Notes under the pieces: model-generated
Told to the model about the DNA's origin: nothing
The model's database searches: none
Seen by the model: the letters and a program-made list of their open reading frames with translations, nothing else
Assembly (NCBI RefSeq): GCF_043290135.1
Contig: NC_134707.1
Location: 79,502,987 to 79,566,986, forward strand
Direction: 5' to 3'
DNA: 64,000 nt
DNA from: Rhipicephalus microplus
Taxonomy: Eukaryota; Arthropoda; Arachnida; Ixodida; Ixodidae
Position numbers and translations under genes: made by a program
Part shown: positions 1 to 64,000 of the stretch, one piece after another
How positions within the stretch are numbered: the first letter of the stretch is position 1
Layout: the number at the start of each line of letters is the position of its first letter

Positions 1-354
1 TATTTAGTCATGATGTTAATTGTATACTAAATGCTGACGACTGCCTGGCTCGAAAACATTTGTTTACTGGAGGTGTGTGTAGACAACAGTCCTAAAGGAA
101 ACACTCTTACGTGCAACCATGTTCCCCAGTGGCGCAATTGGTATGCGCACGGTACTTATACGACAGTTCTCGTGAGCTATGCCGAGGTTGTGAGTTCGAA
201 ACTCACCTGTGCAATGAAGTTTTTATTAGTTTTCATATTTAGTCATGAGGTTAATTGTATACTCGATGCTGGTGACTGCCTGGCTCGAAAAAATTTGTTT
301 ACTGGAGTTTTGCGCAAACAGTCCTAAAGGAAAGACTCCTACGTGCGACCGTGT

Positions 355-446
355 TCCCCAGTGGCGCAATTGGTTAGCGCACGGTACCTTTACGAAAGTT
401 CTCGTGAGCTATGCCGGAGTTGTGAGTTTGAGCCTCACCTGGGGAA
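355..446 (+). pseudogene. UUU module with C33 and U56
   Basis: The loop reads C-C-TTT-A, so the invariant U33 is lost, and the B box is GTTTGAGCC. The intron starts CGAAAG. Others of this class: 5044, 8793, 10432, 10902, 11372, 13481, 16759, 20036, 20271, 25885, 26822, 31266, 36411, 45787, 46956 and 49065. Confidence 0.7.
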
Positions 447-824
447 TGGAATTTTCATTAGTTTTCATATTTAACCTTGAGGTTAATTGTATACTCAATG
501 CTGGCGACTGCCTGGCTCGAAAACATTTGTTTACTGGAGGTGTGTGTAGACAACAGTCCTAAAGGAAACACTCTTACGTGCAACCGTGTTCCCAAGTTGC
601 GCAATTGGTTAGTGCACAATACTTATACGACAGTTCTCGTCAGCTATGCCGAGGTTGTGAGTTCGAGACTCACCTGTGGAATGAAATTTTTATTAGTTTT
701 CATATTTAGTCATGAGGTTAAATGTATACTCAATGCTGGCGACTGCCTGGCTCGAAAAAATTTGTTTACTGGAGTTTTGCGCAGACAACAGTTCTAAAGG
801 AAAGACTCCTACGTGCGACCGTGT

Positions 825-916
825 TCCCCAGGGGCGCAATTGGTTAGCGCACGGTACTTACACGACAGTTCTCGTGAGCTATGCCGGGGTTGTGAGTTTG
901 AGCCTCGCCTGAGGAG
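825..916 (+). pseudogene. UAC (Val) anticodon module with U56
   Basis: The loop is C-T-TAC-A. The B box has T56, the T stem has a U50-G64 wobble, and the discriminator is G. This copy also has G8 in place of T and CTGAGGA in the acceptor. Class members share TAC, T56 and a G discriminator; a subset (13951, 17229, 26355, 27292, 31736, 32437, 36881, 49535) also has TTC in place of CGC after TGG, breaking the D stem. Confidence 0.7.
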
Positions 917-1058
917 TGAAATTTTTATTAGTTTTCATATTTAGCCATGAGGTAATTGTATACTCAATGCTGGCGACCGCCTGGCCCGAAAACATTTGTT
1001 TACTGGAGTTGTGTGTAGACAACAGTCCTAAAGGAAACACTTTTACGTGCAACCGTGT

Positions 1059-1148
1059 TCCCCAGTGGCGCAATTAGTTAGCGCTGAATTTATAGGACAG
1101 TTCTCGTGAGCTATGCCGGGGTTGTGAGTTTGAGCCTCCCCTGGGGAG
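1059..1148 (+). pseudogene. Xa class: anticodon arm destroyed, U56
   Basis: GCGC is followed by TGAATTTATAGG, two bases shorter than the consensus, so no 5-bp anticodon stem can form with TGCCG. B box T56, G73, TTTT terminator. The intron-like sequence is still present. This copy also has A18. Thirty-nine modules share the allele. Confidence 0.8.
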
Positions 1149-1290
1149 TGAAATTTTCATTAGTTTTCATATTTAGCCATGAGGTAATTGCATACTCAAT
1201 GCTGGCGACTGCCTGGCCCGAAAACATTTGTTTACTGGAGTTGTGTGTAGACAACAGTCCTAAAGGAAACACTTTTACGTGCAACCTTGT

Positions 1291-1380
1291 TCCCCAGTGC
1301 CGCAATTGGTTAGCGCTGTATTTATAGGACAGTTCTCGTGAGCTATGCTGGGGTTGTGAGTTCGAGCCTCACCTGGGGAA
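1291..1380 (+). pseudogene. Xb class: anticodon arm destroyed, B box intact
   Basis: GCGC is followed by TGTATTTATAGG and TGCCG is TGCTG. The B box GTTCGAGCC is intact, so TFIIIC could still bind although no decoding tRNA can form. Twenty-seven modules; most directly follow an Xa module. Copies at 24247, 29628, 34773 and others have TATTTAGAGG; 27758 and 32903 have TATTTTAGG (one base shorter). Confidence 0.8.
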
Positions 1381-1682
1381 TGAAATGTTCATAAGTTTTC
1401 ATACTTAGTCATGAGGTTAATTGTATACTCAATGCTGGCGACTGCCTGGCTCGAAAACATCTGTTTACTAGAGTTGTGTGGAGACAACAGTCCTAAAGGA
1501 AACATTCTTACGTGCGACCGTGTTCCCCAGTGGCGCAATTGGTTAGCGCACGGTACTTATACGACAGTTCTCGTGAGCTATGCCGAGGTTGTGAGTTCGA
1601 GCCTCACCTATGGAATCAAATTTTTATTAGTTTTCATATTTAGTCATGCGGTTAATTGTATACTCAATGCTGGTGACTGCCT

Positions 1683-1693
1683 GGCTCGAAAAC
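1683..1693 (+). other. B-box-like element in the spacer (representative unit)
   Basis: GGCTCGAAAAC resembles GGTTCGANTCC in eight of eleven places and is present in nearly every spacer (GGCCCGAAAAC around X modules). No matching A box at proper spacing is seen; role unproven. Confidence 0.25.
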
Positions 1694-1707
1694 ATTTGTT
1701 TACTGGA

Positions 1708-1723
1708 GTTGTGTGTAGACAAC
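1708..1723 (+). other. Short inverted repeat in the spacer (representative unit)
   Basis: GTTGT and ACAAC flank a 6-base loop. It is lost in units reading GGAGGTGTGTGTAG, so it is not conserved across the array. Confidence 0.3.
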
Positions 1724-1758
1724 AGTCTTAAACGAAAGACTCCTACGTGCGACCGTGT

Positions 1759-1850
1759 TCCCCAGTGGCGCAATTGGTTAGCGCACGGTACTTATACGAC
1801 AGTTCTCGTGAGCTATGCCGGGGTTGTGAGTTCGAGCCTCACCTGGGGAA
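1759..1850 (+). tRNA. tRNA-Ile-TAT: tRNA-Ile(UAU), clean copy
   Basis: The tRNA portion is consensus, with full acceptor pairing. It is followed by an unusually long T8 run at 1856-1863, the strongest terminator I noticed in the array. The spacer upstream carries AAACGAAAG in place of AAAGGAAAC. Confidence 0.88.
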
Positions 1851-1855
1851 TGAAA

Positions 1856-1863
1856 TTTTTTTT
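1856..1863 (+). terminator. T8 Pol III terminator
   Basis: Eight consecutive T five bases after the discriminator of the 1759-1850 gene; the array norm is T4-T5. Confidence 0.75.
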
Positions 1864-1993
1864 AGTTTTCATATTTAGTCATGCGCTTCATTGTATACTC
1901 AATGCTGGCGACTGCCTGGCTCGAAAACATCTGTTTACTAGAGTTGTGTGGAGACAACAGTCCTAAAGGAAACACTCTTACGTGCGACCGTGT

Positions 1994-2085
1994 TCCCTAG
2001 TGGCGCAATTGGTTAGCGCACGGTACTTATACAACAGTTCTCGTGAGATATGCCGGGGTTGTGAGTTCGAGCCTCACCTATGGAA
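1994..2085 (+). pseudogene. UAU module with partly compensated acceptor
   Basis: TCCCTAG faces CTATGGA: U5 pairs with A68, leaving only C4 against T69. The intron has AGATAT instead of AGCTAT, weakening its hairpin. The T5 is kept (AAATTTTTCTT). Confidence 0.6.
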
Positions 2086-2463
2086 TCAAATTTTTCTTAG
2101 ATTTCATATTTAGTCATGAGGTTAATTGTATAATAAATGCTGACGACTGCCTGGCTCGAAAACATTTGTTTACTGGAGGTGTGTGTAGACAACAGTCCTA
2201 AAGGAAACACTCTTACGTGCAACCATGTTCCCCAGTGGCGCAATTGGTTAGCGCACGGTACTTATACGACAGTTCTCGTGAGCTATGCCGGGGTTTTGAG
2301 TTCGAGCCTCACCTGGGGAATGAAATTTTTATTATTTTTCATATTTAGTCATGCGGTTAATTGTATACTCAATGCTGGTGACTGCCTGGCTCGAAAACAT
2401 TTGTTTACTAGAGTTGTGTGGAGACAACAGTCCTAAAGGAAACACTCTTACGTGCGACCGTGT

Positions 2464-2555
2464 TCCCCAGTGGCGCAATTGGTTAGCGCACGGTACTTAT
2501 ACGACAGTTCGCGTGAGCTGTGCCGGGATTGTGAGTTCGAGCCTCACCTGGGGAA
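2464..2555 (+). tRNA. tRNA-Ile-TAT: UAU module with G38 and intron change
   Basis: All stems pair. A38 is G (AGCTGTGCC), an intron base is G, and the variable loop is GGATT. Position 38 is next to the splice site, so splicing might be affected. Confidence 0.65.
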
Positions 2556-2698
2556 TAAAATTTTTATTAGTTTTCATATTTAGTCATGAGGTTAATTGTA
2601 TACTCAATGCTGGCGACTGCCTGGCTCGAAAACATTTGTTTACTGGAGTTGTGTGTAGACAACAGTCCTAAAGGAAACACTCTTACGTGCGACCGTGT

Positions 2699-2790
2699 TC
2701 CCCAGTGGCGCAATTGGTTAGCGCACGGTACTTATACGACAGTTCTCGTGAGCTATGCTGGGGTTGTGAGTTCGAGCCTCACCTGGGGAC
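2699..2790 (+). tRNA. tRNA-Ile-TAT: tRNA-Ile(UAU), paired copy with discriminator C
   Basis: All stems pair; C42 is T, giving a G28-U42 wobble. The discriminator is C where the array has A, which may matter for isoleucylation. The leader T-run is broken (GAAATGTTCATT), so termination would depend on the next TTTT. Confidence 0.82.
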
Positions 2791-2933
2791 TGAAATGTTC
2801 ATTAGTTTTCATATTTAGTCATGAGGTTAATTGTATACTCAATGCTGGCAACTGCCTGGCTCGAAAACATTTGTTTACTGGAGTTGTGTGTAGACAACAG
2901 TCTTAAACGAAAGACTCCTACGTGCGACCGTGT

Positions 2934-3025
2934 TCCCCAGTGGCGCAATTGGTTAGCGCACGGTACTTATACGACAGTTCTCGTTAGCTATGCCGGGGTT
3001 GTGAGTTCGAGCCTCACCTGGGGAA
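2934..3025 (+). tRNA. tRNA-Ile-TAT: tRNA-Ile(UAU), clean copy
   Basis: The mature part is consensus. One intron base differs (CTCGTTAGC), changing the intron hairpin. The terminator is TTTT. Confidence 0.86.
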
Positions 3026-3403
3026 TGAAATTTTCATTAGTTTTCATATTTAGTCATGAGGTTAATTGTATACTCAATGCTGGCGACTGCCTGGCTCGAA
3101 AACATTTGTTTACTAGAGTTGTGTGGAGACAACAGTCCTAAAGGAAACACTCTTACGTGCGACCGTGTTCCCCAGTTGCGCAATTGGTTAGCGCACGGTA
3201 CTTATACGACAGTTCTCGTGACCTATGCCGGGGTTTTGAGTTCGAATCTCACCTGGGGAATGAAATTTTTATTAGTTTTCATATTTAGTCATGCGGTTAA
3301 TTGTATACTCAATGCTGGTGACTGCCTGGCTCGAAAACATTTGTTTACTGGAGTTGTGTGTAGACAACAGTCTTAAAGGAAAGACTTCTACGTGCGACCG
3401 TGT

Positions 3404-3495
3404 TCCCCAGTGGCGCAATTGGTTAGCGCACGGTACTTATACGACAGTTCTCGTGAGCTATGCCGGGGTTGTGAGTTCGAGCCTCACCTGGGGAA
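3404..3495 (+). tRNA. tRNA-Ile-TAT: tRNA-Ile(UAU), clean copy
   Basis: Tract and intron are consensus. The downstream leader reads GAAACTTTTATT (T4). Confidence 0.87.
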
Positions 3496-3638
3496 TGAAA
3501 CTTTTATTAGTTTTCAATATTAGTCATGAGGTTATTTGTATACTCAATGCTGGCGACTGCCTGGCTCGAAAACATTTGTTTACTGGAGGTGTGTGTAGAC
3601 AACAGTCCTAAAGGAAACACTCTTACGTGCAACCGTGT

Positions 3639-3730
3639 TCCCCAGTGGCGCAATTAGTTAGCGCACGGTACTTTTACGACAGTTCTCGTCAGCTATGCCA
3701 AGGTTGTGAGTTCGAGACTCACCTGTGGAA
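3639..3730 (+). pseudogene. UUU module with A18 and acceptor mismatch
   Basis: Anticodon TTT with U33, but the D loop is AATTAGTTA (G18 lost, A box broken) and the acceptor 3' strand is CTGTGGA (C4 against T69). The same allele opens several later blocks: 18398, 22609, 27990, 33135, 50704, 54217, 56326, and also 7388. Confidence 0.7.
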
Positions 3731-4107
3731 TGAAATTTTAATTGTTTTCATAATTAGTCATGAGGTTAAATGTATACTCAATGCTGGCGACTGCCTCGCT
3801 CGAAAAAATTTGTTTACTAGAGTTGTGTGGAGACAACAGTCCTAAAGGAAACACTCTTACGTGCGACCGTGTTCCCTAGTGGCGCAATTGGTTAGCGCAC
3901 GGTACTTATACGACAGTTCTCGTGACCTATGACGGGGTTTTGAGGTCGAGCCTCACCTGGGGAATGAAATTTTTATTAGTTTTCATATTTAGTCATGCGG
4001 TTAATTGTATACTCAATGCTGGTGACTGCCTGGCTCGAAAACATTTGTTTACTGGAGTTGTGTGTAGACAACAGTCTTAAAGGAAAGACTTCTACGTGCG
4101 ACCGTGT

Positions 4108-4198
4108 TCCCAGTGGCGCAATTGGTTAGCGCACGGTACTTATACGACAGTTCTCGTGAGCTATGCCGGGGTTGTGAGTTCGAGCCTCACCTGGGGAA
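4108..4198 (+). pseudogene. UAU module with one-base acceptor deletion
   Basis: The 5' acceptor strand is TCCCAG, one C short; the rest is consensus. The same deletion is in 7857-7947. Confidence 0.7.
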
Positions 4199-4341
4199 TG
4201 AAACTTTTATTAGTTTTCAATATTAGTCATGAGGTTAATTGTATACTCAATGCTGGCGACTGCCTGGCTCGAAAACATTTGTTTACTGGAGGTGTGTGTA
4301 GACAACAGTCCTAAAGGAAACACTCTTACGTGCAACCGTGT

Positions 4342-4433
4342 TCCCCAGTGGCGCAATTAGTTAGCGCACGGTATTTTCACGACAGTTCTCGTCAGCTATG
4401 CCAAGGTTGTGAGTTCGAGACTCACCTGTGGAA
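4342..4433 (+). pseudogene. UUC (Glu) anticodon module
   Basis: After CGGTA the loop reads T-T-TTC-A, so U33 is kept and the anticodon is UUC. D loop AATTAGTTA lacks G18 and the acceptor has CTGTGGA. The only other copy is 8091. Confidence 0.65.
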
Positions 4434-6447
4434 TGAAATTTTTATTAGTTTTCATAATTATACATGAGGTTAATTGTATACTCAATGCTGGCGACTGCCT
4501 GGCTCGAAAACATTTGTTTACTGGAGTTGTGTGTAGACAACAGTCCTAAAGGAAAGACTCCTACGTGCGACCGTGTTCTCCAGTGGCGCAATTAGTTAGC
4601 ACACGGTACTTATACGACAGTTCTCGTGAGCTATGCCGGGGTTGTGAGTTCGAGCCTCACCTATGGAATCAAATTTTTCTTAGATTTCATATTTAGTCAT
4701 GATGTTAATTGTATACTAAATGCTGACGACTGCCTGGCTCGAAAACATTTGTTTACTGGAGGTGTGTGTAGACAACAGTCCTAAAGGAAACACTCTTACG
4801 TGCAACCATGTTCCCCAGTGGCGCAATTGGTATGCGCACGGTACTTATACGACAGTTCTCGTGAGCTATGCCGAGGTTGTGAGTTCGAAACTCACCTGTG
4901 CAATGAAGTTTTTATTAGTTTTCATATTTAGTCATGAGGTTAATTGTATACTCGATGCTGGTGACTGCCTGGCTCGAAAAAATTTGTTTACTGGAGTTTT
5001 GCGCAAACAGTCCTAAAGGAAAGACTCCTACGTGCGACCGTGTTCCCCAGTGGCGCAATTGGTTAGCGCACGGTACCTTTACGAAAGTTCTCGTGAGCTA
5101 TGCCGGAGTTGTGAGTTTGAGCCTCACCTGGGGAATGGAATTTTCATTAGTTTTCATATTTAACCTTGAGGTTAATTGTATACTCAATGCTGGCGACTGC
5201 CTGGCTCGAAAACATTTGTTTACTGGAGGTGTGTGTAGACAACAGTCCTAAAGGAAACACTCTTACGTGCAACCGTGTTCCCAAGTTGCGCAATTGGTTA
5301 GTGCACAATACTTATACGACAGTTCTCGTCAGCTATGCCGAGGTTGTGAGTTCGAGACTCACCTGTGGAATGAAATTTTTATTAGTTTTCATATTTAGTC
5401 ATGAGGTTAAATGTATACTCAATGCTGGCGACTGCCTGGCTCGAAAAAATTTGTTTACTGGAGTTTTGCGCAGACAACAGTTCTAAAGGAAAGACTCCTA
5501 CGTGCGACCGTGTTCCCCAGGGGCGCAATTGGTTAGCGCACGGTACTTACACGACAGTTCTCGTGAGCTATGCCGGGGTTGTGAGTTTGAGCCTCGCCTG
5601 AGGAGTGAAATTTTTATTAGTTTTCATATTTAGCCATGAGGTAATTGTATACTCAATGCTGGCGACCGCCTGGCCCGAAAACATTTGTTTACTGGAGTTG
5701 TGTGTAGACAACAGTCCTAAAGGAAACACTTTTACGTGCAACCGTGTTCCCCAGTGGCGCAATTAGTTAGCGCTGAATTTATAGGACAGTTCTCGTGAGC
5801 TATGCCGGGGTTGTGAGTTTGAGCCTCCCCTGGGGAGTGAAATTTTCATTAGTTTTCATATTTAGCCATGAGGTAATTGTATACTCAATGCTGGCGACTG
5901 CCTGGCCCGAAAACATTTGTTTACTGGAGTTGTGTGTAGACAACAGTCCTAAAGGAAACACTTTTACGTGCAACCTTGTTCCCCAGTGCCGCAATTGGTT
6001 AGCGCTGTATTTATAGGACAGTTCTCGTGAGCTATGCTGGGGTTGTGAGTTCGAGCCTCACCTGGGGAATGAAATGTTCATTAGTTTTCATACTTAGTCA
6101 TGAGGTTAATTGTATACTCAATGCTGGCGACTGCCTGGCTCGAAAACATCTGTTTACTAGAGTTGTGTGGAGACAACAGTCCTAAAGGAAACACTCTTAC
6201 GTGCGACCGTGTTCCCCAGTGGCGCAATTGGTTAGCGCACGGTACTTATACGACAGTTCTCGTGAGCTATGCCGAGGTTGTGAGTTCGAGCCTCACCTAT
6301 TGAATCAAATTTTTATTAGTTTTCATATTTATTCATGCGGTTAATTGTATACTCAATGCTGGTGACTGCCTGGCTCGAAAACATTTGTTTACTGGAGTTG
6401 TGTGTAGACAACAGTCCTAAAGGAAACACTCTTACGTGCGACCGTGT

Positions 6448-6539
6448 TCCCCAGTGGCGCAATTGGTTAGCGCACGGTACTTATACGACAGTTCTCGTGA
6501 GCTATGCTGGGGTTGTGAGTTCGAGCCTCACCTGGGGAC
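6448..6539 (+). tRNA. tRNA-Ile-TAT: tRNA-Ile(UAU), copy of 2699 with discriminator C
   Basis: Counterpart of 2699-2790 in the second higher-order repeat, with the same U42 wobble and C73. Its upstream spacer begins like that of 1759, so the 940-bp deletion between the two blocks closed in the spacer just before this gene. Confidence 0.82.
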
Positions 6540-6682
6540 TGAAATGTTCATTAGTTTTCATATTTAGTCATGAGGTTAATTGTATACTCAATGCTGGCAA
6601 CTGCCTGGCTCGAAAACATTTGTTTACTGGAGTTGTGTGTAGACAACAGTCTTAAACGAAAGACTCCTACGTGCGACCGTGT

Positions 6683-6774
6683 TCCCCAGTGGCGCAATTG
6701 GTTAGCGCACGGTACTTATACGACAGTTCTCGTTAGCTATGCCGGGGTTGTGAGTTCGAGCCTCACCTGGGGAA
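6683..6774 (+). tRNA. tRNA-Ile-TAT: tRNA-Ile(UAU), copy of 2934
   Basis: Same as 2934-3025 at an offset of 3749, including the intron G to T change and the TTTT terminator. Confidence 0.86.
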
Positions 6775-7152
6775 TGAAATTTTCATTAGTTTTCATATTT
6801 AGTCATGAGGTTAATTGTATACTCAATGCTGGCGACTGCCTGGCTCGAAAACATTTGTTTACTAGAGTTGTGTGGAGACAACAGTCCTAAAGGAAACACT
6901 CTTACGTGCGACCGTGTTCCCCAGTTGCGCAATTGGTTAGCGCACGGTACTTATACGACAGTTCTCGTGACCTATGCCGGGGTTTTGAGTTCGAATCTCA
7001 CCTGGGGAATGAAATTTTTATTAGTTTTCATATTTAGTCATGCGGTTAATTGTATACTCAATGCTGGTGACTGCCTGGCTCGAAAACATTTGTTTACTGG
7101 AGTTGTGTGTAGACAACAGTCTTAAAGGAAAGACTTCTACGTGCGACCGTGT

Positions 7153-7244
7153 TCCCCAGTGGCGCAATTGGTTAGCGCACGGTACTTATACGACAGTTCT
7201 CGTGAGCTATGCCGGGGTTGTGAGTTCGAGCCTCACCTGGGGAA
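7153..7244 (+). tRNA. tRNA-Ile-TAT: tRNA-Ile(UAU), copy of 3404
   Basis: Same as 3404-3495 at an offset of 3749; no defect seen. Confidence 0.87.
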
Positions 7245-8090
7245 TGAAACTTTTATTAGTTTTCAATATTAGTCATGAGGTTATTTGTATACTCAATGCT
7301 GGCGACTGCCTGGCTCGAAAACATTTGTTTACTGGAGGTGTGTGTAGACAACAGTCCTAAAGGAAACACTCTTACGTGCAACCGTGTTCCCCAGTGGCGC
7401 AATTAGTTAGCGCACGGTACTTTTACGACAGTTCTCGTCAGCTATGCCAAGGTTGTGAGTTCGAGACTCACCTGTGGAATGAAATTTTAATTGTTTTCAT
7501 AATTAGTCATGAGGTTAAATGTATACTCAATGCTGGCGACTGCCTCGCTCGAAAAAATTTGTTTACTAGAGTTGTGTGGAGACAACAGTCCTAAAGGAAA
7601 CACTCTTACGTGCGACCGTGTTCCCTAGTGGCGCAATTGGTTAGCGCACGGTACTTATACGACAGTTCTCGTGACCTATGACGGGGTTTTGAGGTCGAGC
7701 CTCACCTGGGGAATGAAATTTTTATTAGTTTTCATATTTAGTCATGCGGTTAATTGTATACTCAATGCTGGTGACTGCCTGGCTCGAAAACATTTGTTTA
7801 CTGGAGTTGTGTGTAGACAACAGTCTTAAAGGAAAGACTTCTACGTGCGACCGTGTTCCCAGTGGCGCAATTGGTTAGCGCACGGTACTTATACGACAGT
7901 TCTCGTGAGCTATGCCGGGGTTGTGAGTTCGAGCCTCACCTGGGGAATGAAACTTTTATTAGTTTTCAATATTAGTCATGAGGTTAATTGTATACTCAAT
8001 GCTGGCGACTGCCTGGCTCGAAAACATTTGTTTACTGGAGGTGTGTGTAGACAACAGTCCTAAAGGAAACACTCTTACGTGCAACCGTGT

Positions 8091-8182
8091 TCCCCAGTGG
8101 CGCAATTAGTTAGCGCACGGTATTTTCACGACAGTTCTCGTCAGCTATGCCAAGGTTGTGAGTTCGAGACTCACCTGTGGAA
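8091..8182 (+). pseudogene. UUC (Glu) anticodon module, copy of 4342
   Basis: Offset 3749 from 4342 with the same defects. Confidence 0.65.
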
Positions 8183-8325
8183 TGAAATTTTTATTAGTTT
8201 TCATAATTATACATGAGGTTAATTGTATACTCAATGCTGGCGACTGCCTGGCTCGAAAACATTTGTTTACTGGAGTTGTGTGTAGACAACAGTCCTAAAG
8301 GAAAGACTCCTACGTGCGACCGTGT

Positions 8326-8417
8326 TCTCCAGTGGCGCAATTAGTTAGCACACGGTACGTATACGACAGTTCTCGTGAGCTATGCCGGGGTTGTGAGTTC
8401 GAGCCTCACCTATGGAA
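8326..8417 (+). pseudogene. UAU module with G33
   Basis: CGGTA is followed by C-G-TAT-A; U33 is lost in this copy only. Acceptor TCTCCAG against CTATGGA has mismatches; A18. The parallel copy 4577 has U33. Confidence 0.65.
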
Positions 8418-10196
8418 TCAAATTTTTCTTAGATTTCATATTTAGTCATGATGTTAATTGTATACTAAATGCTGACGACTGCCTGGCTCGAAAACATTTG
8501 TTTACTGGAGGTGTGTGTAGACAACAGTCCTAAAGGAAACACTCTTACGTGCAACCATGTTCCCCAGTGGCGCAATTGGTATGCGCACGGTACTTATACG
8601 ACAGTTCTCGTGAGCTATGCCGAGGTTGTGAGTTCGAAACTCACCTGTGCAATGAAGTTTTTATTAGTTTTCATATTTAGTCATGAGGTTAATTGTATAC
8701 TCGATGCTGGTGACTGCCTGGCTCGAAAAAATTTGTTTACTGGAGTTTTGCGCAAACAGTCCTAAAGGAAAGACTCCTACGTGCGACCGTGTTCCCCAGT
8801 GGCGCAATTGGTTAGCGCACGGTACCTTTACGAAAGTTCTCGTGAGCTATGCCGGAGTTGTGAGTTTGAGCCTCACCTGGGGAATGGAATTTTCATTAGT
8901 TTTCATATTTAACCTTGAGGTTAATTGTATACTCAATGCTGGCGACTGCCTGGCTCGAAAACATTTGTTTACTGGAGGTGTGTGTAGACAACAGTCCTAA
9001 AGGAAACACTCTTACGTGCAACCGTGTTCCCAAGTTGCGCAATTGGTTAGTGCACAATACTTATACGACAGTTCTCGTCAGCTATGCCGAGGTTGTGAGT
9101 TCGAGACTCACCTGTGGAATGAAATTTTTATTAGTTTTCATATTTAGTCATGAGGTTAAATGTATACTCAATGCTGGCGACTGCCTGGCTCGAAAAAATT
9201 TGTTTACTGGAGTTTTGCGCAGACAACAGTTCTAAAGGAAAGACTCCTACGTGCGACCGTGTTCCCCAGGGGCGCAATTGGTTAGCGCACGGTACTTACA
9301 CGACAGTTCTCGTGAGCTATGCCGGGGTTGTGAGTTTGAGCCTCGCCTGAGGAGTGAAATTTTTATTAGTTTTCATATTTAGCCATGAGGTAATTGTATA
9401 CTCAATGCTGGCGACCGCCTGGCCCGAAAACATTTGTTTACTGGAGTTGTGTGTAGACAACAGTCCTAAAGGAAACACTTTTACGTGCAACCGTGTTCCC
9501 CAGTGGCGCAATTAGTTAGCGCTGAATTTATAGGACAGTTCTCGTGAGCTATGCCGGGGTTGTGAGTTTGAGCCTCCCCTGGGGAGTGAAATTTTCATTA
9601 GTTTTCATATTTAGCCATGAGGTAATTGTATACTCAATGCTGGCGACTGCCTGGCCCGAAAACATTTGTTTACTGGAGTTGTGTGTAGACAACAGTCCTA
9701 AAGGAAACACTTTTACGTGCAACCTTGTTCCCCAGTGCCGCAATTGGTTAGCGCTGTATTTATAGGACAGTTCTCGTGAGCTATGCTGGGGTTGTGAGTT
9801 CGAGCCTCACCTGGGGAATGAAATGTTCATTAGTTTTCATACTTAGTCATGAGGTTAATTGTATACTCAATGCTGGCGACTGCCTGGCTCGAAAACATCT
9901 GTTTACTAGAGTTGTGTGGAGACAACAGTCCTAAAGGAAACACTCTTACGTGCGACCGTGTTCCCCAGTGGCGCAATTGGTTAGCGCACGGTACTTATAC
10001 GACAGTTCTCGTGAGCTATGCCGAGGTTGTGAGTTCGAGCCTCACCTATTGAATCAAATTTTTATTAGTTTTCATATTTATTCATGCGGTTAATCGTATA
10101 CTCAATGCTGGTGACTGCCTGGCTCGAAAACATTTGTTTACTGGAGTTGTGTGTAGACAACAGTCTTAAACGAAAGACTCCTACGTGCGACCGTGT

Positions 10197-45137: not shown

Positions 45138-45152
45138 ATGCCGGGGTTGTGA

Positions 45153-45161: not shown

Positions 45162-45178
45162 TCACCTGGGGAATGAAA

Positions 45179-53838: not shown

Positions 53839-53981
53839 TGAAATTTTTATTAGTTTTCATATTTAGTCATGCGGTTAATTGTATACTCAATGCTGGTGAC
53901 TGCCTGGCTCGAAAACATTTGTTTACTGGAGTTGTGTGTAGACAACAGTCTTAAAGGAAAGACTTCTACGTGCGACCGTGT

Positions 53982-54073
53982 TCCCCAGTGGCGCAATTGG
54001 TTAGCGCACGGTACTTATACGACAGTTTTCGTGAGCTATGCCGGTGTTGTGAGTTCGAGCCTCACCTGGGGAA
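53982..54073 (+). tRNA. tRNA-Ile-TAT: tRNA-Ile(UAU), paired copy
   Basis: All stems pair. Differences are one intron base (GTTTTCG) and a variable-loop base (GTGTT). The leader is AACGAAACTTTTATT, so the terminator is T4. Related modules at 14885, 18163 and 50469 carry C49 and lose that pair; this copy keeps G49. Confidence 0.83.
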
Positions 54074-54216
54074 CGAAACTTTTATTAGTTTTCAATATTA
54101 GTCATGAGGTTAATTGTATACTCAATGCTGGCGACTGCCTGGCTCGAAAACATTTGTTTACTGGAGGTGTGTGTAGACAACAGTCCTAAAGGAAACACTC
54201 TTACGTGCAACCGTGT

Positions 54217-56325
54217 TCCCCAGTGGCGCAATTAGTTAGCGCACGGTACTTTTACGACAGTTCTCGTCAGCTATGCCAAGGTTGTGAGTTCGAGACTCAC
54301 CTGTGGAATGAAATTTTTATTAGTTTTCATAATTAGTCATGAGGTTAAATGTATACTCAATGCTGGCGACTGCCTCGCTCGAAAAAATTTGTTTACTGTA
54401 GTTTTGCGCAGACAACAGTCCTAAAGGAAAGACTCCTACGTGCGACCATGTTCCCCAGTGGCGCAATTGGTTAGCGCTGAATTTATAGGACAGTTCTCGT
54501 GAGCTATGCCGGGGTTGTGAGTTTGAGCCTCGCCTGGGGAGTGAAATTTTCATTAGTTTTCGTATTTAGCCATGAGGTAATTGTATACTCAATGCTGGCG
54601 ACTGCCTGGCCCGAAAACATTTGTTTACTGGAGTTGTGTGTAGACAACAGTCCTAAAGGAAACACTCTTACGTGAAACCGTGTTCCCCAGTGGCGCAATC
54701 GGTTAGCGCACGGTACTTATGCGACAGTTCTCGTGAGCTATGCCGGGGTTGTGAGTTCGAGCCTCACCTGGGGAATGAAATTCTTATTAGTTTTCATTAT
54801 TAGTCATGAGGTTAATTGTATACTCAATGCTGGCGACTGCCTGGCTCGAAAACATTTGCTTAATGGAGGTGTGTGTAGACAACAGTCCTAAAGGAAACAC
54901 TTTTACGTGCGACCGTGTTCCCGAGTGGCGCAATTGGTTAGCGCACGGTACTTATACGACAGTTCTCGTGAGCTATGCCGGGGTTGTGAGTTCGAGCCTC
55001 ACCTGGGGAATGAAATTTTTATTAGTTTTCATATTTATACATGAGGTTAATTGTATACTCAATGCTGGCGACTGCCTGGCTCGAAAACATTTGTTTACTG
55101 GAGTTGTGTGTAGACAACAGTCCTAAAGAAAAGACTCCTACGTGCGACCGTGTTCCCCAGTGGCACAATTGGTTAGCGCACGGTACTTATACGACAGTTC
55201 TCGTGAGCTATGCCGGGGTTGTGAGTTCGAGCCTCACCTGGGGAATGAAATTTTTATTAGTTTTCATATTCAGTCGTGAGGTTCATTGTATACTGAATGC
55301 TGGCGACTGCCTGGCTCGAAAACGTTTGTTTACTGGAGTTTTGCGCAGACAACATTCCTAAAGGAAAGACTCCTACGTGTGACCATGTTCCCCAGTGGCG
55401 CAATCGGTTAGCGCACGGTACTTTTAAGAAAGTTCTCGTGAGCTATCCCGGCGTTGTGAGTTCGAGCCTCACCTGGGGAATGAAATTTTTATTAGTGTTC
55501 ATATTTAGTCATGAGGTTAATTGTATACTCAAAGCTGGCGACTGCCTGGCTCGAAAACGTTTGTTTACTGGAGTTGTGTGTAGACAACAGTCTTAAAGGA
55601 AACACTTTTACGTGCAACCGTGTTTCCCAGTAGCGCAATTGGTTAGCGCTGAATTTATAGGACAGTTCTCGTGAGCTATGCCGGGGTTGTGAGTTTGAGC
55701 CTCGCCTGGGGAGTGAAATTTTCATTAGTTTTCATATTTAGCCATGAGGTAATTGTATACTCAATGCTGGCGACTGACTGGCCCGAAAACATTTGTTTAC
55801 TGGAGTTGTGTGTAGACAACAGTCCTAAAGGAAACACTTTTACGTGCAACCGTGTTCCCCAGTGGCGCAATTGGTTAGCGCACGGTACTTATACGACAGT
55901 TCTCGTGACCTATGCCGGGGTTTTGAGTTCGAGCCTCACCTGGGGAATGAAATTTTTATTAGTTTTCATATTTAGTCATGCGGTTAATTGTATACTCAAT
56001 GCTGGTGACTGCCTGGCTCGAAAACATTTGTTTACTGGAGTTGTGTGTAGACAACAGTCTTAAAGGAAAGACTTCTACGTGCGACCGTGTTCCCCAGTGG
56101 CGCAATTGGTTAGCGCACGATACTTATACGACAGTTTTCGTGAGCTATGCCGGTGTTGTGAGTTCGAGCCTCACCTGGGGAACGAAACTTTTATTAGTTT
56201 TCAATATTAGTCATGAGGTTAATTGTATACTCAATGCTGGCGACTGCCTGGCTCGAAAACATTTGTTTACTGGAGGTGTGTGTAGACAACAGTCCTAAAG
56301 GAAACACTCTTACGTGCAACCGTGT
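54217..56325 (+). repeat. 9-module block (2109 bp)
   Basis: Modules: 54217 k, 54452 Xa, 54684 i, 54919 i, 55154 i, 55389 k, 55624 Xa, 55856 i, 56091 i. A shortened version of the preceding block, joined inside the chimeric 55154 module; 56091 has A29 against C41. Confidence 0.85.
55154..55245 (+). tRNA. tRNA-Ile-TAT: UAU chimeric module with A12
   Basis: The 5' part (CCTAAAGAAAAG spacer and TGGCACAATTGG, A12 against C23) matches 57263. The 3' part and following spacer (ATTCAGTCGTGAGG) match 24950. The crossover falls inside the tRNA. Confidence 0.6.
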
Positions 56326-58665
56326 TCCCCAGTGGCGCAATTAGTTAGCGCACGGTACTTTTACGACAGTTCTCGTCAGCTATGCCAAGGTTGTGAGTTC
56401 GAGACTCACCTGTGGAATGAAATTTTTATTAGTTTTCATAATTAGTCATGAGGTTAAATGTATACTCAATGCTGGCGACTGCCTCGCTCGAAAAAATTTG
56501 TTTACTGTAGTTTTGCGCAGACAACAGTCCTAAAGGAAAGACTCCTACGTGCGACCATGTTCCCCAGTGGCGCAATTGGTTAGCGCTGAATTTATAGGAC
56601 AGTTCTCGTGAGCTATGCCGGGGTTGTGAGTTTGAGCCTCGCCTTGGGAGTGAAATTTTCATTAGTTTTCGTATTTAGCCATGAGGTAATTGTATACTCA
56701 ATGCTGGCGACTGCCTGGCCCGAAAACATTTGTTTACTGGAGTTGTGTGTAGACAACAGTCCTAAAGGAAACACTCTTACGTGAAACCGTGTTCCCCAGT
56801 GGCGCAATCGGTTAGCGCACGGTACTTATGCGACAGTTCTCGTGAGCTATGCCGGGGTTGTGAGTTCGAGCCTCACCTGGGGAATGAAATTCTTATTAGT
56901 TTTCATTATTAGTCATGAGGTTAATTGTATACTCAATGCTGGCGACTGCCTGGCTCGAAAACATTTGCTTAATGGAGGTGTGTGTAGACAACAGTCCTAA
57001 AGGAAACACTTTTACGTGCGACCGTGTTCCCGAGTGGCGCAATTGGTTAGCGCACGGTACTTATACGACAGTTCTCGTGAGCTATGCCGGGGTTGTGAGT
57101 TCGAGCCTCACCTGGGGAATGAAATTTTTATTAGTTTTCATATTTATACATGAGGTTAATTGTATACTCAATGCTGGCGACTGCCTGGCTCGAAAACATT
57201 TGTTTACTGGAGTTGTGTGTAGACAACAGTCCTAAAGAAAAGACTCCTACGTGCGACCGTGTTCCCCAGTGGCACAATTGGTTAGCGCACGGTACTTATA
57301 CGACAGTTCTCGTCAGCTATGCTGAGGTTGTCAGTTCGAGACTCACCTGTGGAATGAAATTTTTATTAGTTTTCATATTTAGTCATGAGGTTAAATGTAT
57401 ACTCGATGCTGGCGACTGCCTGGCTCGAAAAAATTTGTTTACTGGAGTTTTGCGCAGACAACAGTCCTAAAGGAAAGACTCCTACGTGCGACCGTGTTCC
57501 CCAGTGGCGCAATTGGTTAGCGCACGGTACTTACACGACAGTTCTCGTGAGCTATGCAGGTGTTGTGAGTTTGAGCCTCGCCTGGGGAGTGAAATTTTTA
57601 TTAGTTTTCATATTTAGCCATGAGGTAATTGTATACTCAATGCTGGCAACTGCCTGGCCCGAAAACATTTGTTTACTGGAGTTGTGTGTAGACAACAGTC
57701 CTAAAGGAAACACTTTTACGTGCAACCGGTTTCCCCGGTGGCGCAATTGGTTAGCGCTGAATTTATAGGACAGTTCTCGTGAGCTATGCCGGGATTGTGA
57801 GTTTGAGCCTCTCCTGGGGAGTGAAATTTTCATTAGTTTTCATATTTAGCCATGAGGTAATTGTATACTCAATGCTGGCGACTGCCTGGCCTGAAAACAT
57901 TTGTTTACTGGAGTTGTGTGTAGACAACAGTCCTAAAGGAAACACTTCTACGTGCAACCTCGTTCCCTAGTGGCGCAATTGGTTAGCGCTGTATTTAGAG
58001 GACAGTTCTCGTGAGCTATGCTGGGGTTGTGAGTTCGAGCCTCACCTGGGGAATGAAATTTTCATTAGTTCTCATATTTAGTCATGAGGTTAATTGTATA
58101 CTCAATGCTGGCGACTGCCTGGCTCGAAAACATTTGTTTACTAGGTTGTGTGGAGACAACAGTCCTAAAGGAAACACTCTTACGTGCGACCGTGTTCCCC
58201 AGTGGCGCAATTGGTTAGCGCACAGTACTTATACGACAGTTCTCGTGAGCTATGCCGGGGTTGTGAGTTCGGGCCTTACCTAGGGAATAAAATTTTTAAT
58301 AGTTTTCATATTTAGTCATGAGGTTAATTGTATACTCAATGCTGGCGACTGCCTGGCTCGAAAACATTTGTTTACTGGAGGTGTGTGTAGACAACAGTCC
58401 TAAAGGAAACACTCTTACGTGCAACCATGTTCCCCAGTGGCGCAATTGGTTAGCGCACGGTACTTATACGACAGTTCTCGTGAGCTATGCCGGGGTTTGG
58501 AGTTCGAGCCTCACCTGGGGAATCAAATTTTTATTAGTTTTCATATTTAGTCATGCGGTTAATTGTATACTCAATGCTGGTGACTGCCTGGCTCGAAAAC
58601 ATTTGTTTACCTGAGTTGTGTGTAGACAACAGTCTTGAAGGAAAGACTCCTACGTGCGACCGTGT

Positions 58666-58757
58666 TCCCCAGTGGCGCAATTGGTTAGCGCACGGTACTT
58701 ATACGACAGTTCTCGTGAGCTATGCCGGGGTTGTGAGTTCGAGCCTCACCTGGGGAA
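58666..58757 (+). tRNA. tRNA-Ile-TAT: tRNA-Ile(UAU), clean copy
   Basis: Consensus gene of the 24950 lineage with T5; directly followed by the UUU gene at 58901. Confidence 0.87.
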
Positions 58758-58900
58758 TGAAATTTTTATTAGTTTTCATATTCAGTCGTGAGGTTCATTG
58801 TATACTGAATGCTGGCGACTGCCTGGCTCGAAAACGTTTGTTTACTGGAGTTTTGCGCAGACAACAGTCCTAAAGGAAAGACTCCTACGTGTGACCATGT

Positions 58901-58992
58901 TCCCCAGTGGCGCAATCGGTTAGCGCACGGTACTTTTAAGAAAGTTCTCGTGAGCTATGCCGGCGTTGTGAGTTCGAGCCTCACCTGGGGAA
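58901..58992 (+). tRNA. Ile-type body with UUU anticodon, clean stems, split terminator
   Basis: Variable loop GCGTT as in 40864. The leader reads AAATTCTTATT, so the T5 is interrupted; the downstream half was exchanged with the lineage of 18865. Confidence 0.72.
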
Positions 58993-61478
58993 TGAAATTC
59001 TTATTAGTTTTCATTATTAGTCATGAGGTTAATTGTATACTCAATGCTGGCGACTGCCTGGCTCGAAAACATTTGCTTAATGGAGGTGTGTGTAGACAAC
59101 AGTCCTAAAGGAAACACTTTTACGTGCGACCGTGTTCCCGAGTGGCGCAATTGGTTAGCGCACGGTACTTATACGACAGTTCTCGTGAGCTATGCCGGGG
59201 TTGTGAGTTCGAGCCTCACCTGGGGAATGAAATTTTTATTAGTTTTCATATTTATACATGAGGTTAATTGTATACTCAATGCTGGCGACTGCCTGGCTCG
59301 AAAACATTTGTTTACTGGAGTTGTGTTTAGACAACAGTCCTAAAGAAAAGACTCCTACGTGCGACCGTGTTCCCCAGTGGCGCAATTAGTTAGCACACGG
59401 TACTTATACGACAGTTCTCGTGAACTATGCCGGGGTTGTGAGTTCGAGCCTCACCTATGGAATCAAATTTTTCTTAGATTTCATATTTAGTCATGAGTTT
59501 AATTGTATACTAAATGCTGACGACTGCCTGGCTCGAAAACATTTGTTTACTGGAGGTGTGTGTAGACAACAGTCCTAAAGGAAACACTCTTACGTGCAAC
59601 CATGTTCCCCATTGGCGCAATTGGTTAGCGCACGGTACTTATACGACAGTTCTCGTGAGCTATGCCGGGGTTTTGAGTTCGAGCCTCACCTGGGGAATGA
59701 AATTTTTATTGATTTTCATTATTAGTCATGAGGTTAATTGTGTACTCAATGCTGGCGACTGCCTGGCTTGAAAACATTTGTTTACTGGAGGTGTGTGTAG
59801 ACAACAGTCCTAAAGGAAACACTCTTACGTGCAACCGTGTTCCCCAGTGGCGCAATTGGTTAGCGCACGGTACTTATACGACAGTTCTCGTGAGCTATGC
59901 CTGGGTTGTGAGTTGGAGCCTCACCTGGGGAATGAAATTTTTATTAGTTTTCATAATTATACATGAGGTTAATTGTATACTCAATGCTGGCGACTGCCTA
60001 GCTCGAAAAAATTTGTTTACTGGAGGTTTGTGTAGACAACAGTCGTAAAGGAAACACTCTAACGTGAAACCGTGTTCCCCAGTGGCGCAATTGTGTAGCG
60101 CACGGTACTTATACGACAGTTCTCGTGAGCTATGCCGGGGTTGTGAGTTCGAGCCTCACCTGGGGAATGAAATTCTTATTAGTTTTCATTATTAGTCATG
60201 AGATTAATTGTATACTCAATGCTGGCGACTGCCTGGCTCGAAAACATTTGCTTACTGGAGGTGTGTGTAGACAACAGTCTTAAAGGAAACACTTTTACGT
60301 GCAACCATGTTCCTGAGTGGCGAAATTGGTTAGCGCACGGTACTTATACGACAGTTCTCGTGAGCTATGCCGGGGTTGTGAGTTCGAGCCTCACCTGGGG
60401 AATGAAATTTTTATTAGTTTTCATATTTATACATGAGGTTAATTGTATACTCAATGCTGGCGACTGCCTAGCTCGAAAACATTTGTTTACTGGAGTTGTG
60501 TGTAGACAACAGTCCTAAAGAAAAGACTCCTACGTGCGACCGTGTTCCCCAGTGGCGCAATTGGTTAGCGCACGGTACTTATACGACAGTTCTCGTCAGC
60601 TATGCCGAGGTTGTGAGTTCGAGACTCACCTGTGGAATGAAATTTTTATTAGTTTTCATATTTAGTCATGAGGTTAAATGTATACTCGATGCTGGCGACT
60701 GCCTGGCTCGAAAAAATTTGTTCACTGGAGTTTTGCGCAGACAAAAGTCCTAAAGGAAAGACTCCTACGTGCGACCGTGTTCCCCAGTGGCGCAATTGGT
60801 TAGCGCACGGTACATACACGACAGTTCTCGTGAGCTATGCAGGGGTTGTGAGTTTGAGCCTCGCCTGGAAGTGAAATTTTTATTACTTTTCATATTTAGC
60901 CATGAGGTAATTGTATACTCAATGCTGGCGACTGCCTGGCCCGAAAACATTTGTTTACTGGAGTTGTGTGTCGACAACAGTCCTAAAGGAAACACTTTTA
61001 CGTGCAACCGGTTTCCCCGGTGGCGCAATTGGTTAGCGCTGAATTTATAGGACAGTTCTCGTGAGCTATGCCGGGGTTGTGAGTTTGAGCCTCGCCTGGG
61101 GAGTGAAATTTTCATTAGTTTTCATATTTAGCCATGAGGTAATTGTATACTCAATGCTGGCGACTGCCTGGCCCGAAAACATTTGTTTACTGGAGGTTTG
61201 TGTAGACAACAGTCCTAAAGGAAACACTTTTACGTGCAACCTCGTTCCCTAGTGGCGCAATTGGTTAACGCTGTATTTAGAGGACAGTTCTCGTGAGCTA
61301 TGCTGGGGTTGTGAGTTCGAGCCTCACCTGGGGAATGATATTTTCATTAGTTCTCATATTTAGTCTTGAGGTTAATTGTGTACTCAATGCTGGCGACTGC
61401 CTGGCTCGAAAACATTTGTTTACTAGAGTTGTGTGGAGACAACAGTCCTAAAGGAAACACTCTTACGTGCGACCGTGT

Positions 61479-61570
61479 TCCCCAGTGGCGCAATTGGTTA
61501 GCGCTCGGTACTTATACGACAGTTCTCGTGAGCTATGCCGGGGTTGTGAGTTCGAGCCTTACCTGGGGAA
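61479..61570 (+). tRNA. tRNA-Ile-TAT: tRNA-Ile(UAU), stems paired, T26
   Basis: Same T26 and U63 variants as 41564-41655 (offset about 19.9 kb). Confidence 0.78.
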
Positions 61571-61948
61571 TAAAATTTTTATTAGTTTTCATATTTAGTC
61601 ATGAGGTTAATTGTATACTCAATGCTGGCGACTGCCTGGCTCGAAAACATTTGTTTACTGGAGGTGTGTGTAGACAACAGTCCTAAAGGAAACACTCTTA
61701 CGTGCAACCATGTTCCCCAGTGGCGCAATTGGTTAGCGCACGGTACTTATACGACAGTTCTCGTGAGCTATGCCGGGGTTTGGAGTTCGAGCCTCACCTG
61801 GGGAATCAAATTTTTATTAGTTTTCATATTTAGTCATGCGGTTAATTGTATACTCAATGCTGGTGACTGCCTGGCTCGAAAACATTTGTTTACTGGAGTT
61901 GTGTGTAGACAACAGTCTTGAAGGAAAGACTCCTACGTGCGACCGTGT

Positions 61949-62040
61949 TCCCCAGTGGCGCAATTGGTTAGCGCACGGTACTTATACGACAGTTCTCGTG
62001 AGCTATGCCGGGGTTGTGAGTTCGAGCCTCACCTGGGGAA
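61949..62040 (+). tRNA. tRNA-Ile-TAT: tRNA-Ile(UAU), clean copy
   Basis: Counterpart of 42034; consensus gene directly followed by a UUU module at 62184. Confidence 0.87.
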
Positions 62041-62183
62041 TAAAATTTTTATTAGTTTTCATATTCAGTCGTGAGGTTCATTGTATACTGAATGCTGGCG
62101 ACTGCCTGGCTCGAAAACGTTTGTTTACTGGAGTTTTGCGCAGACAACAGTCCTAAAGGAAAGACTCCTACGTGTGACCATGT

Positions 62184-62275
62184 TCCCCAGTGGCGCAATC
62201 GGTTAGCGCACGGTACTTTTAAGAAAGTTCTCGTGAGCTATGCCGCGGTTGTGAGTTCGAGCCTCACCTGGGGAA
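62184..62275 (+). tRNA. Ile-type body with UUU anticodon, clean stems
   Basis: Counterpart of 42269 with variable loop CGGTT; all stems pair and T5 follows. Confidence 0.74.
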
Positions 62276-62418
62276 TGAAATTTTTATTAGTGTTCATATT
62301 TAGTCCAGAGGTTAATTGTATACTCAATGCTGGCGACTGCCTGGCTCGAAAACGTTTGTTTACTGGAGGTGTGTGTAGACAACAGTCCTAAAGGAAACAC
62401 TCTTACGTAAAACCGTGT

Positions 62419-62510
62419 TCCTCAGTGGCGCAATTGGTTAGCGCACGGTACTTATACGACAGTTCTTGTGAGCTATGCCGGGGTTGTGAGTTCGAGCCTC
62501 ACCTGGGGAA
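62419..62510 (+). tRNA. tRNA-Ile-TAT: tRNA-Ile(UAU), paired copy with C4 to T
   Basis: Acceptor TCCTCAG gives a U4-G69 wobble. One intron base differs (TTCTTGTG). Its counterpart at 42504 has a D-stem break (G13) that this copy lacks. Confidence 0.82.
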
Positions 62511-62653
62511 TGAAATTTTTATTAGTTTTCATTATTAGTCATGAGGTTAATTGTATACTCAATTCTGGCGACTGCCTGGCTCGAAAACATTTGCTTACTG
62601 GAGGTGTGTGTAGACAACAGTCCTAAAGGAAACACTTTTACGTGCAACCGTGT

Positions 62654-64000
62654 TCTCCAGTGGCGCAATTAGTTAGCACACGGTACTTATACGACAGTTC
62701 TCGTGAACTATGCCGGGGTTGTGAGTTCGAGCCTCACCTATGGAATCAAATTTTTCTTAGATTTCATATTTAGTCATGAGTTTAATTGTATACTAAATGC
62801 TGACGACTGCCTGGCTCGAAAACATTTGTTTACTGGAGGTGTGTGTAGACAACAGTCCTAAAGGAAACACTCTTACGTGCAACCATGTTCCCCATTGGCC
62901 CAATTGGTTAGCGCACGGTACTTATACGACAGTTCTCGTGAGCTATGCTGGGGTTTTGAGTTCGAGCCTCACCTGGGGAATGAAATTCTTATTAGTTTTC
63001 ATTATTAGTCATGAGGTTAATTGTATACTCAATGCTGGCGACTGCCTGGCTCGAAAACATTTGTTTACTGGAGGTGTGTGTAGACAACAGTCCTAAAGGA
63101 AACACTTTTACGTGCAACCGTGTTCCCGAGTGGCGCAATTGGTTAGCGCACGGTACTTATACGACAGTTCTCGTGAGCTATGCCGGGGTTGTGAGTTCGA
63201 GCCTCACCTGGGGAATGAAATTTTTATTGATTTTCATTATTAGTCATGAGGTTAATTGTGTACTCAATGCTGGCGACTGCCTGGCTTGAAAACATTTGTT
63301 TACTGGAGGTGTGTGTAGACAACAGTCATAAAGGAAACACTCTTACGTGCAACCGTGTTCCCCAGTGGCGCAATTGGTTAGCGCACGGTACTTATACGAC
63401 AGTTCTCGTGAGCTATGCCTGGGTTGTGAGTTGGAGCCTCACCTGGGGAATGAAATTTTTATTAGTTTTCATAATTATACATGAGGTTAATTGTATACTC
63501 AATGCTGGCGACTGCCTAGCTCGAAAAAATTTGTTTACTGGAGGTTTGTGTAGACAACAGTCGTAAAGGAAACACTCTAACGTGAAACCGTGTTCCCCAG
63601 TGGCGCAATTGTGTAGCGCACGGTACTTATACGACAGTTCTCGTGAGCTATGCCGGGGTTGTGAGTTTGAGCCTCACCTGGGGAATGAAATTTTTATTAG
63701 TGTTCATATTTAGTCATGAGGTTAATTGTATACTCAATGCTGGTGACTGCCTGGCTCGAAAACATTTGTTTACTGGAGGTGTGTGTAGACAACAGTCCTA
63801 AAGGAAACACTGTTACGTGAAACCGTGTTCCCCAGTGGCGCAATTCGTTAGCGCACGGTACTTATACGACAGTTCTCGTGAGCTATGCCGGGGTTGTGAG
63901 TTCGAGCCTCACCTGGGGAATGAAATGCTTATTAGTTTTCATTATTAGTCATGAGATTAATTGTATACTCAATGCTGGCGACTGCCTGGCTCGAAAACAT
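62654..64000 (+). repeat. Last block, 6 modules, cut by the window end
   Basis: Modules: 62654 i, 62889 i, 63124 i, 63359 i, 63594 i, 63829 i; order as in 39219-40394. 62889 has acceptor TCCCCAT and GGCCCAATTGG, an added D-stem break. 63921-64000 is ordinary spacer. Confidence 0.84.
63829..63920 (+). pseudogene. UAU module with C18, last in window
   Basis: D loop AATTCGTTA loses G18; other elements are consensus. The leader is GAAATGCTTATT, so no T-run of four is left at the usual place. Spacer follows to the window end. Confidence 0.6.

Follow-up and report, generated by a model that had tools for sequence, protein, structure and literature searches.

A tRNA-Ile(UAU) satellite in Rhipicephalus microplus and dispersed 5′ halves that probably record its transcription

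Why should a tick genome hold 64,000 bases that consist of one tRNA gene, repeated head to tail, and of no other gene? The stretch in question, hereafter the window, lies on contig NC_134707.1 of Rhipicephalus microplus (C8:79502987-79566986). An earlier note, made from its letters alone, had proposed three possible roles: dosage of AUA decoding, a TFIIIC-bound chromatin boundary or organizing element, or a satellite that merely began as a tRNA gene. We conclude that the array is probably a satellite derived from a tRNA-Ile(UAU) gene whose promoter was kept well enough for RNA polymerase III (Pol III), and that it probably is, or recently was, a Pol III template. Evidence for transcription comes from outside the array, where retroposed 5′ halves of the tRNA precursor carry array variants. 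Our genome-wide searches covered the 3.26-Gb assembly with its 1,202 contigs.

The array and its unit

Tandem Repeats Finder (TRF) describes the window as a single array with a period of 235 bases, 273.3 copies, and 91% matches, and leaves no gap. Cyclic alignment to the consensus divides it into 273 complete units, each 232-236 bases long, and a partial one of 62 bases, all head to tail on one strand, and the flanks on both sides (L009 and L010) are again array. Rfam gives 94 matches above the gathering score, every one of them RF00005 (tRNA) and none of any other family; this count is a minimum, as a dispersed gene, L054, escaped the same default filters. The description of 273 head-to-tail modules with no other gene, in an array that runs past both ends, is thereby borne out. 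The number of tRNA genes that ARAGORN predicts depends on the introns allowed: 156 with none, 199 for lengths of 0-200 bases, and 163 by default. All lie on the + strand, but not every one is typed as Ile. Mean pairwise identity between units is 91.2%, 163 of the 273 units are distinct, and the largest near-identical block duplication spans up to 22 units at 99.9%.

1..64000, + strand: tandem array of 273 full 235-bp units and a 62-base partial unit (TRF, cyclic alignment, flanks L009 and L010)

The consensus gene fills 92 of the 235 bases of the unit, leaving a flank of about 143 bp. It folds into an acceptor stem and D, anticodon, and T arms, and its anticodon, TAT, is followed one base later by a 19-nucleotide intron. 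A U1-A72 acceptor pair is present in 273/273 units, as is a run of at least four consecutive T within 25 bases 3′ of the gene, the form of a Pol III terminator. The four bases before the gene (the leader) are GTGT in 211/273 units and ATGT in 31/273. The identity that the earlier note gave to the gene is right as to isoacceptor and intron, but TAT itself is found in only about three quarters of the units (TAT 201, TTT 38, TAC 23, TAG 9, TTC 2). One intact and one decayed copy illustrate the unit.

1759..1850, + strand: tRNA-Ile(UAU) gene of 92 bases, intron included, from one of the 35/273 units that are fully intact (Rfam 51.2 bits; stem and invariant-base check)
1793..1795, + strand: its anticodon TAT (index within the 92-mer)
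1797..1815, + strand: its 19-nucleotide intron, with the boundary predicted from the tRNA fold and the eukaryotic tRNA intron rule
1755..1758, + strand: its 4-base leader position, the putative transcription start judging by retroposed copies
1829..1839, + strand: its B-box region, placed by the tRNA numbering that we assume (loss of base C56 was counted in all 273 units)
1851..1875, + strand: the 25 bases 3′ of this gene, searched for the terminator (T-run count)
1059..1148, + strand: decayed copy that lacks 2 bases at the foot of the anticodon arm, as in 66/273 units

Dispersed genes and retroposed 5′ halves

Outside the array the same tRNA is encoded by single genes. A search of the genome with the 92-base gene returned 18 matches, all on the reverse strand; this search probably skipped forward words as common. 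Five matches are full genes in unrelated flanks (L052-L056), and a sixth full gene (L078), on the forward strand, was found by an exact 5′-exon word. The reverse count of a 3′-exon word is 5 genome-wide, corresponding to L052-L056, and the forward gene L078 is listed with it as well. Six is a lower bound, as forward single genes beyond the C8 array are absent from the listing. Exon 1 of all six genes equals the array consensus, and their leaders are GTCT, GTCT, GTCC, GTTC, CATC, and CATC. Rfam gives 51 bits for five of them; the other, L054, looks the same as printed as L053, which passed, so the filters rather than the gene failed. Because six intact single genes with the same exons exist elsewhere, the array is not needed to encode tRNA-Ile(UAU). 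The low copy number ascribed to this isoacceptor agrees with the two cases considered, this genome, with its at least six dispersed intact genes, and mouse, with four (PMC11065635; here and below, published findings are cited from the available portions of the papers).

The genome also contains 15 partial copies of the gene, 13 from the 92-base search and two from the 5′-exon word. All except L066, which is without a 5′ end, consist of leader, exon 1, and at most about 16 intron bases (14/15), and these 14 of the 15 are flanked by target-site duplications, direct repeats 10-18 bases long that in some cases differ at one base. Neither method finds a duplication at L066, which is left out, and L067 and L068 share identical flanks and are counted once; the resulting 13 independent insertions are a lower bound, with forward copies mostly outside the search. 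In each of the 13 scored rows, 0/200 shuffles reach the observed repeat; the duplication of L069 has a one-base gap that the automatic finder missed and was identified separately. The same repeat test detects no flanking duplication at the six full single genes.

L057-L065, L067, L068, L069, L072, L075, on contigs C1, C2, C3, C4, C6, C9, C11, and C56: retroposed 5′ halves of the tRNA-Ile(UAU) precursor

These dispersed 5′ halves are 3′-truncated RNA copies with a duplication and no tail, which we take to be the definition of a tailless retropseudogene. In mammals, tailless retropseudogenes derive from 3′-truncated small RNAs, bear no A-tail, and are flanked by target-site duplications; the form is the same here, but the host is a tick, the RNA is an intron-bearing tRNA precursor, and the likely source is a satellite. 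The inserts start 2-7 bases before the gene (3-5 bases in 10/13), and 7/13 end at position 38-39, the exon-intron border.

The variants that the insertions carry point to their origin. Their leaders are GTAT (6), GTGT (4), ATGT (1), ATAT (1), and GCAC (1). An A at position -2 is present in 8/13 insertions and in 26/52 units from the aged stretches of the array (old or edge units), and in 0/413 units from the window and from the homogenized core of the array and 0/6 single genes. Two insertions (L057 and L064) combine -2A with 29C, a variant seen in 11/52 old or edge units and 0/413 window and core units; all 11 units read with 29C lack its pairing partner and have a broken anticodon arm. Other exon-1 variants of the insertions recur in the array as well: 19C (13/52), 10A (3/52), and 30A (11/52) in old or edge units, and 18A (36/413) in window and core units. 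Over leader and exon 1, L075 is identical to 10 window and 7 core units, and L072 to one old or edge unit.

The insertions share with the array leader and exon variants that are missing from the six genes. Germ-line transcription of array units of both core and old types, including some whose anticodon arm is broken, is therefore very probable. From the insertions, their duplications, and their linked variants we infer the array as the source, Pol III as the polymerase, and the splicing endonuclease or another nuclease as the maker of the halves. An inert, fully silent satellite, with 5′-half insertions that came from unseen dispersed genes or from a formerly active array, would be compatible with the lack of visible per-copy selection in the window and with the gap in our listing of forward single genes, and zebrafish tRNA genes of large clusters are nearly fully methylated (PMC11574265). 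Such silence is nevertheless quite unlikely, given that the insertions hold several haplotypes, from core (18A, -4A) and old units (-2A with 29C, 19C, 10A). This diversity is beyond a single unseen gene, which would be no adequate source.

Decay, selection, and function

Base C56 of the B box is lost in 87/273 window units, and 66/273 have the 2-base deletion in the anticodon arm. With intactness defined as 21 stem pairs, 12 invariant bases, and TAT, 35/273 units (about 13%) qualify, none of them among the 66, and 89/273 pass if one stem pair may fail. Five units have an otherwise perfect structure with the anticodon TTT. A functional gene cluster is expected to keep cloverleaf, UAU anticodon, and invariant bases in its copies, and only the 35/273 do so.

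Over all window units, nucleotide diversity reaches 0.092 for exons, 0.059 for the intron, and 0.081 for the spacer; among distinct window units, exons and spacer do not differ (0.092 versus 0.085; Mann-Whitney p 0.31), and rare alleles per site are not reduced in window exons. In a circular-shift control, in which each unit's differences were slid round the unit, the 71 intact units (transition-coded) compare with 50.6 ± 24.7, and 18% of 234 shifts reach as high a number. Because exon variation is as high as that of the spacer, there is no sign of copy-by-copy selection within the window.

Two further candidate signals were rejected. Among the pair types listed (up to seven per pair), a compensatory double change occurs once, in one acceptor pair of one unit (T-A for C-G), and a single instance in one unit was not accepted as evidence of function. 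A germ-line methylation signature was set aside as unproven: C>T changes affect 5.7% of CpG sites and 3.2% of other C, but the single site C56 accounts for 84 of those 172 cells, G>A stands at 2.3% against 2.0%, and the observed/expected CpG ratio of the consensus is 0.93.

Might the array nonetheless serve dosage, with intact units as the main source of tRNA-Ile(UAU) at times of high demand, as has been proposed for oocyte tRNA repeats, and with decayed units as tolerated ballast? Fully intact genes make up 35/273 window and 23/140 core units, the terminator is present in every window unit, the majority gene sequence is the same in old and window units, mean exon divergence of old units is below that of their spacer, and the retroposed copies point to transcription. 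There are also parallels in animals, as bona fide maternal zebrafish tRNAs originate in repetitive regions (PMC11417395) and Xenopus has oocyte-specific tandem tRNA genes (PMC11500080). We nevertheless regard this role as unlikely, because window exons are conserved no more than the spacer, other anticodons are found in 72/273 units (the five structurally perfect ones all being TTT), C56 is so often lost, and six intact single genes exist. The dosage of AUA decoding that the earlier note considered thus retains the intact-looking fraction of window units and lacks any sign of their copy-by-copy maintenance.

A chromatin boundary or organizer made of TFIIIC sites is very improbable. tRNA genes (tDNAs) do have boundary and organizing roles, but the B-box base C56 is missing from 87/273 units; no search aimed at architectural sites was made. 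A human tDNA repeat at 1q23.3 has been proposed as a boundary for its conserved CTCF site (PMC4041453).

Comparison within the genome is possible because R. microplus has at least three tRNA arrays. Two are tRNA-Thr arrays, one on C4 with a 190-bp unit (107.96-108.17 Mb; L027, L002, L003, L004) and one on C2 with a 177-bp unit (282.48 Mb; L028). CGT and TGT anticodons are mixed within one array, and the two consensus tRNAs are identical while the spacers differ. A few units in these arrays have CAT, TTT, TTG, CCT, or TGA anticodons. Intact genes number 20/72 on C4 (5/77 dropped) and 10/41 on C2 (0/41 dropped). On C2 the divergence of the tRNA is not below that of the spacer (0.033 against 0.035; 34 full units of 43 matches; p 0.60), and the C4 array, unlike the Ile window, shows constraint.

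Several observations weigh against the conclusion that the array is a freely decaying satellite with a transcribed past. The constraint in the C4 tRNA-Thr array (tRNA 0.040 versus spacer 0.087; 65 full units of 77 matches; p 0.005) is one of them. Old side units of the Ile array (n=49), which match the consensus at 87.4% compared with 94.7% for window units and of which 1/49 is intact, have an exon divergence of 0.088 against 0.132 in the spacer (rank test p 0.78; the spacer splits into 0.197 upstream and 0.085 downstream), and core units (n=140) show a smaller difference in the same direction (0.045 versus 0.052; p 0.43). C56 is lost in 26/140 core units but in only 2/49 old units. Furthermore, the majority sequences of old and window units are the same at all 92 gene bases, although they differ at 10/143 spacer sites (nine within 60 bp upstream, one downstream). 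The founders of each amplification may have been functional. By extrapolation from the window and the core samples, some hundreds of units would still be intact array-wide, which makes a supply role possible. As for transcription, the array seldom has some of the bases found in the insertions (e.g., those at 12 and 34) and a few occur in no array unit read, L065 and L069 match the array poorly, and source variants are not told apart from mutations that the insertions gained later. Forward-strand single genes outside the listing could be the source of some insertions. Finally, the insertions testify to past rather than present transcription.

With these points weighed, a satellite that arose from a tRNA gene and was transcribed remains our preferred explanation, and its history may be pictured as follows. 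A gene of the type that is still single elsewhere would have been amplified with its flank of about 143 bp into head-to-tail units. Unequal exchange, perhaps, and block duplication, which we observe directly, would have spread and homogenized the units into a core on one contig, leaving the edges and a side stretch to age into the diverged units seen there. Window units appear to decay freely, with anticodons, stems, and C56 lost about as fast as spacer bases, and everyday tRNA-Ile(UAU) would be supplied by single genes such as the six intact ones. Array units, including those with a broken anticodon arm, would have been transcribed in the germ line, with a start about 4 bases before the gene, and 5′ parts of the precursor, 7/13 of them ending at the exon-intron border, would have been reverse-transcribed into the genome. 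For the animal, the array probably has no function now under selection and at most provides a surplus supply of precursor. A further reading, that the satellite persists because it yields RNA rather than tRNA, is unlikely; its germ-line Pol III output would then consist mainly of leader-bearing 5′ pre-tRNA halves, instead of mature tRNA, that feed retrotransposition and may act as small RNAs.

Extent of the satellite and known tRNA arrays

The satellite forms two blocks of the same strand on C8, at 79.37-79.97 Mb and about 81.09-81.43 Mb. The first starts at 79,368,977 (L049), preceded by two short stray pieces, and all further samples up to 79,844,600 (17/17) are array, with single matches mostly at 93-98% to the consensus and at lowest 89%; its extent rests on these samples, and stretches between them were not read. 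Beyond 79,844,600, array pieces of about 78-94% alternate with other DNA to at least 79,965,500, and array is absent at 79,970,000. The second block was found at six sampled places from 81,100,000 to 81,340,500 (92-99%) and at 81,430,000 (85-91%), and array was absent from samples at 81,050,000, 81,065,000, 81,080,000, 81,380,000, 81,500,000, and 81,600,000. A long head-to-tail array of a near-uniform unit, seen in the window and in the 17 further samples across 79.37-79.845 Mb, and a homogenized core with block duplications and diverged sides are both features of a satellite.

Genome-wide, a 29-base word of the spacer has 1,029 forward and no reverse occurrences, and the 273 window units contain it 92 times, from which we estimate about 3,050 units, in agreement with the sampled length. 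All listed places of this word lie in the C8 array; a rarer spacer word (115 forward, 0 reverse) has all of its listed places on C8. Places of the rare word are set apart seven times by the same distance, 82,599 bp (C8:79630935-79753695), a sign either that a block of very large size was duplicated within the array or that the assembly itself introduced a duplicate.

An origin as a short interspersed element (SINE) was rejected, as the terminator directly follows the tRNA and no dispersed whole units were seen. A tRNA-derived SINE would be expected as dispersed whole units with body and tail; the spacer search gave no reverse-strand copy, and although it skips forward words, the same kind of search did recover reverse copies of the gene. 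A reverse transcriptase frame (PF00078, L050:694-1626) and a THAP-domain frame (PF05485, L042:159-599) lie between the old array pieces. Elsewhere on C8, at 65.4-67.8 Mb, 24 of 25 PF02098 (His_binding) matches form a cluster of tick histamine-binding-type exons, a family that we presume to be tick-specific.

The earlier note called a pure tRNA-gene satellite unusual, which is fair, but there is a precedent in the maize satellite tRNASAT_ZM, a 91.95-kb array on chr4L (PMC10335936). That array is likewise a tandem satellite named for its tRNA content and located on a single chromosome arm, whereas the tick array has an estimated 3,000 units of an intron-bearing tRNA-Ile(UAU) gene. Like the tick array, the Arabidopsis SYY cluster has its tRNA genes in tandem, flanks that vary more and hold more pseudogenes than its core, and dispersed genes of the same isotype, but it has 54 clustered Tyr genes mixed with Ser, and its expression and root-cap role were established by experiment (PMC12308677). 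Most tRNA genes of zebrafish and stickleback are clustered (PMC2888827), and zebrafish chromosome 4 resembles the tick locus in its huge clustered copy number with many copies of doubtful use (PMC11417395, PMC11574265). Its 5,227 predicted genes (PMC11574265) have mostly heterogeneous neighbors (PMC2888827), and the available portions of these papers do not describe it as a pure one-isotype satellite. Entamoeba also carries tRNA genes head to tail, but there almost all tRNA genes lie in arrays, and clear evidence for pseudogene copies is lacking (PMC2652664), whereas most tick units are decayed and single genes persist. The human 1q23.3 repeat is a variable tandem repeat with tRNA genes as well, but its 7.3-kb unit, present 9-43 times, binds CTCF and is less than 6% tRNA gene (PMC4041453), compared with 92/235 bases in the tick. 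For Ixodes scapularis, the genome paper reports large tandem repeat families, and the word tRNA is absent from its main text in the version available (PMC4748124); no tick tRNA satellite was found in the literature searched, outside of which most subscription papers fall.

Of the three roles first proposed, a satellite that began as a tRNA gene is the best supported, and it is the word "merely" that the retroposed halves with array variants make doubtful. tRNA satellites were already known from maize; the less expected part is the set of transcript fossils that trace to the array. Arguments over whether a large tRNA array holds working genes or dead repeats usually draw on copy number or chromatin. 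In this tick, array leader and exon variants in dispersed transcript halves make past transcription of array lineages readable from the genome alone, and the same approach could be applied to other tRNA or 5S satellites. The locus also bears on tRNA gene counts as a proxy for decoding supply, which one satellite can inflate several hundredfold, as the estimated 3,000 units and the at least six single genes of this tick illustrate.

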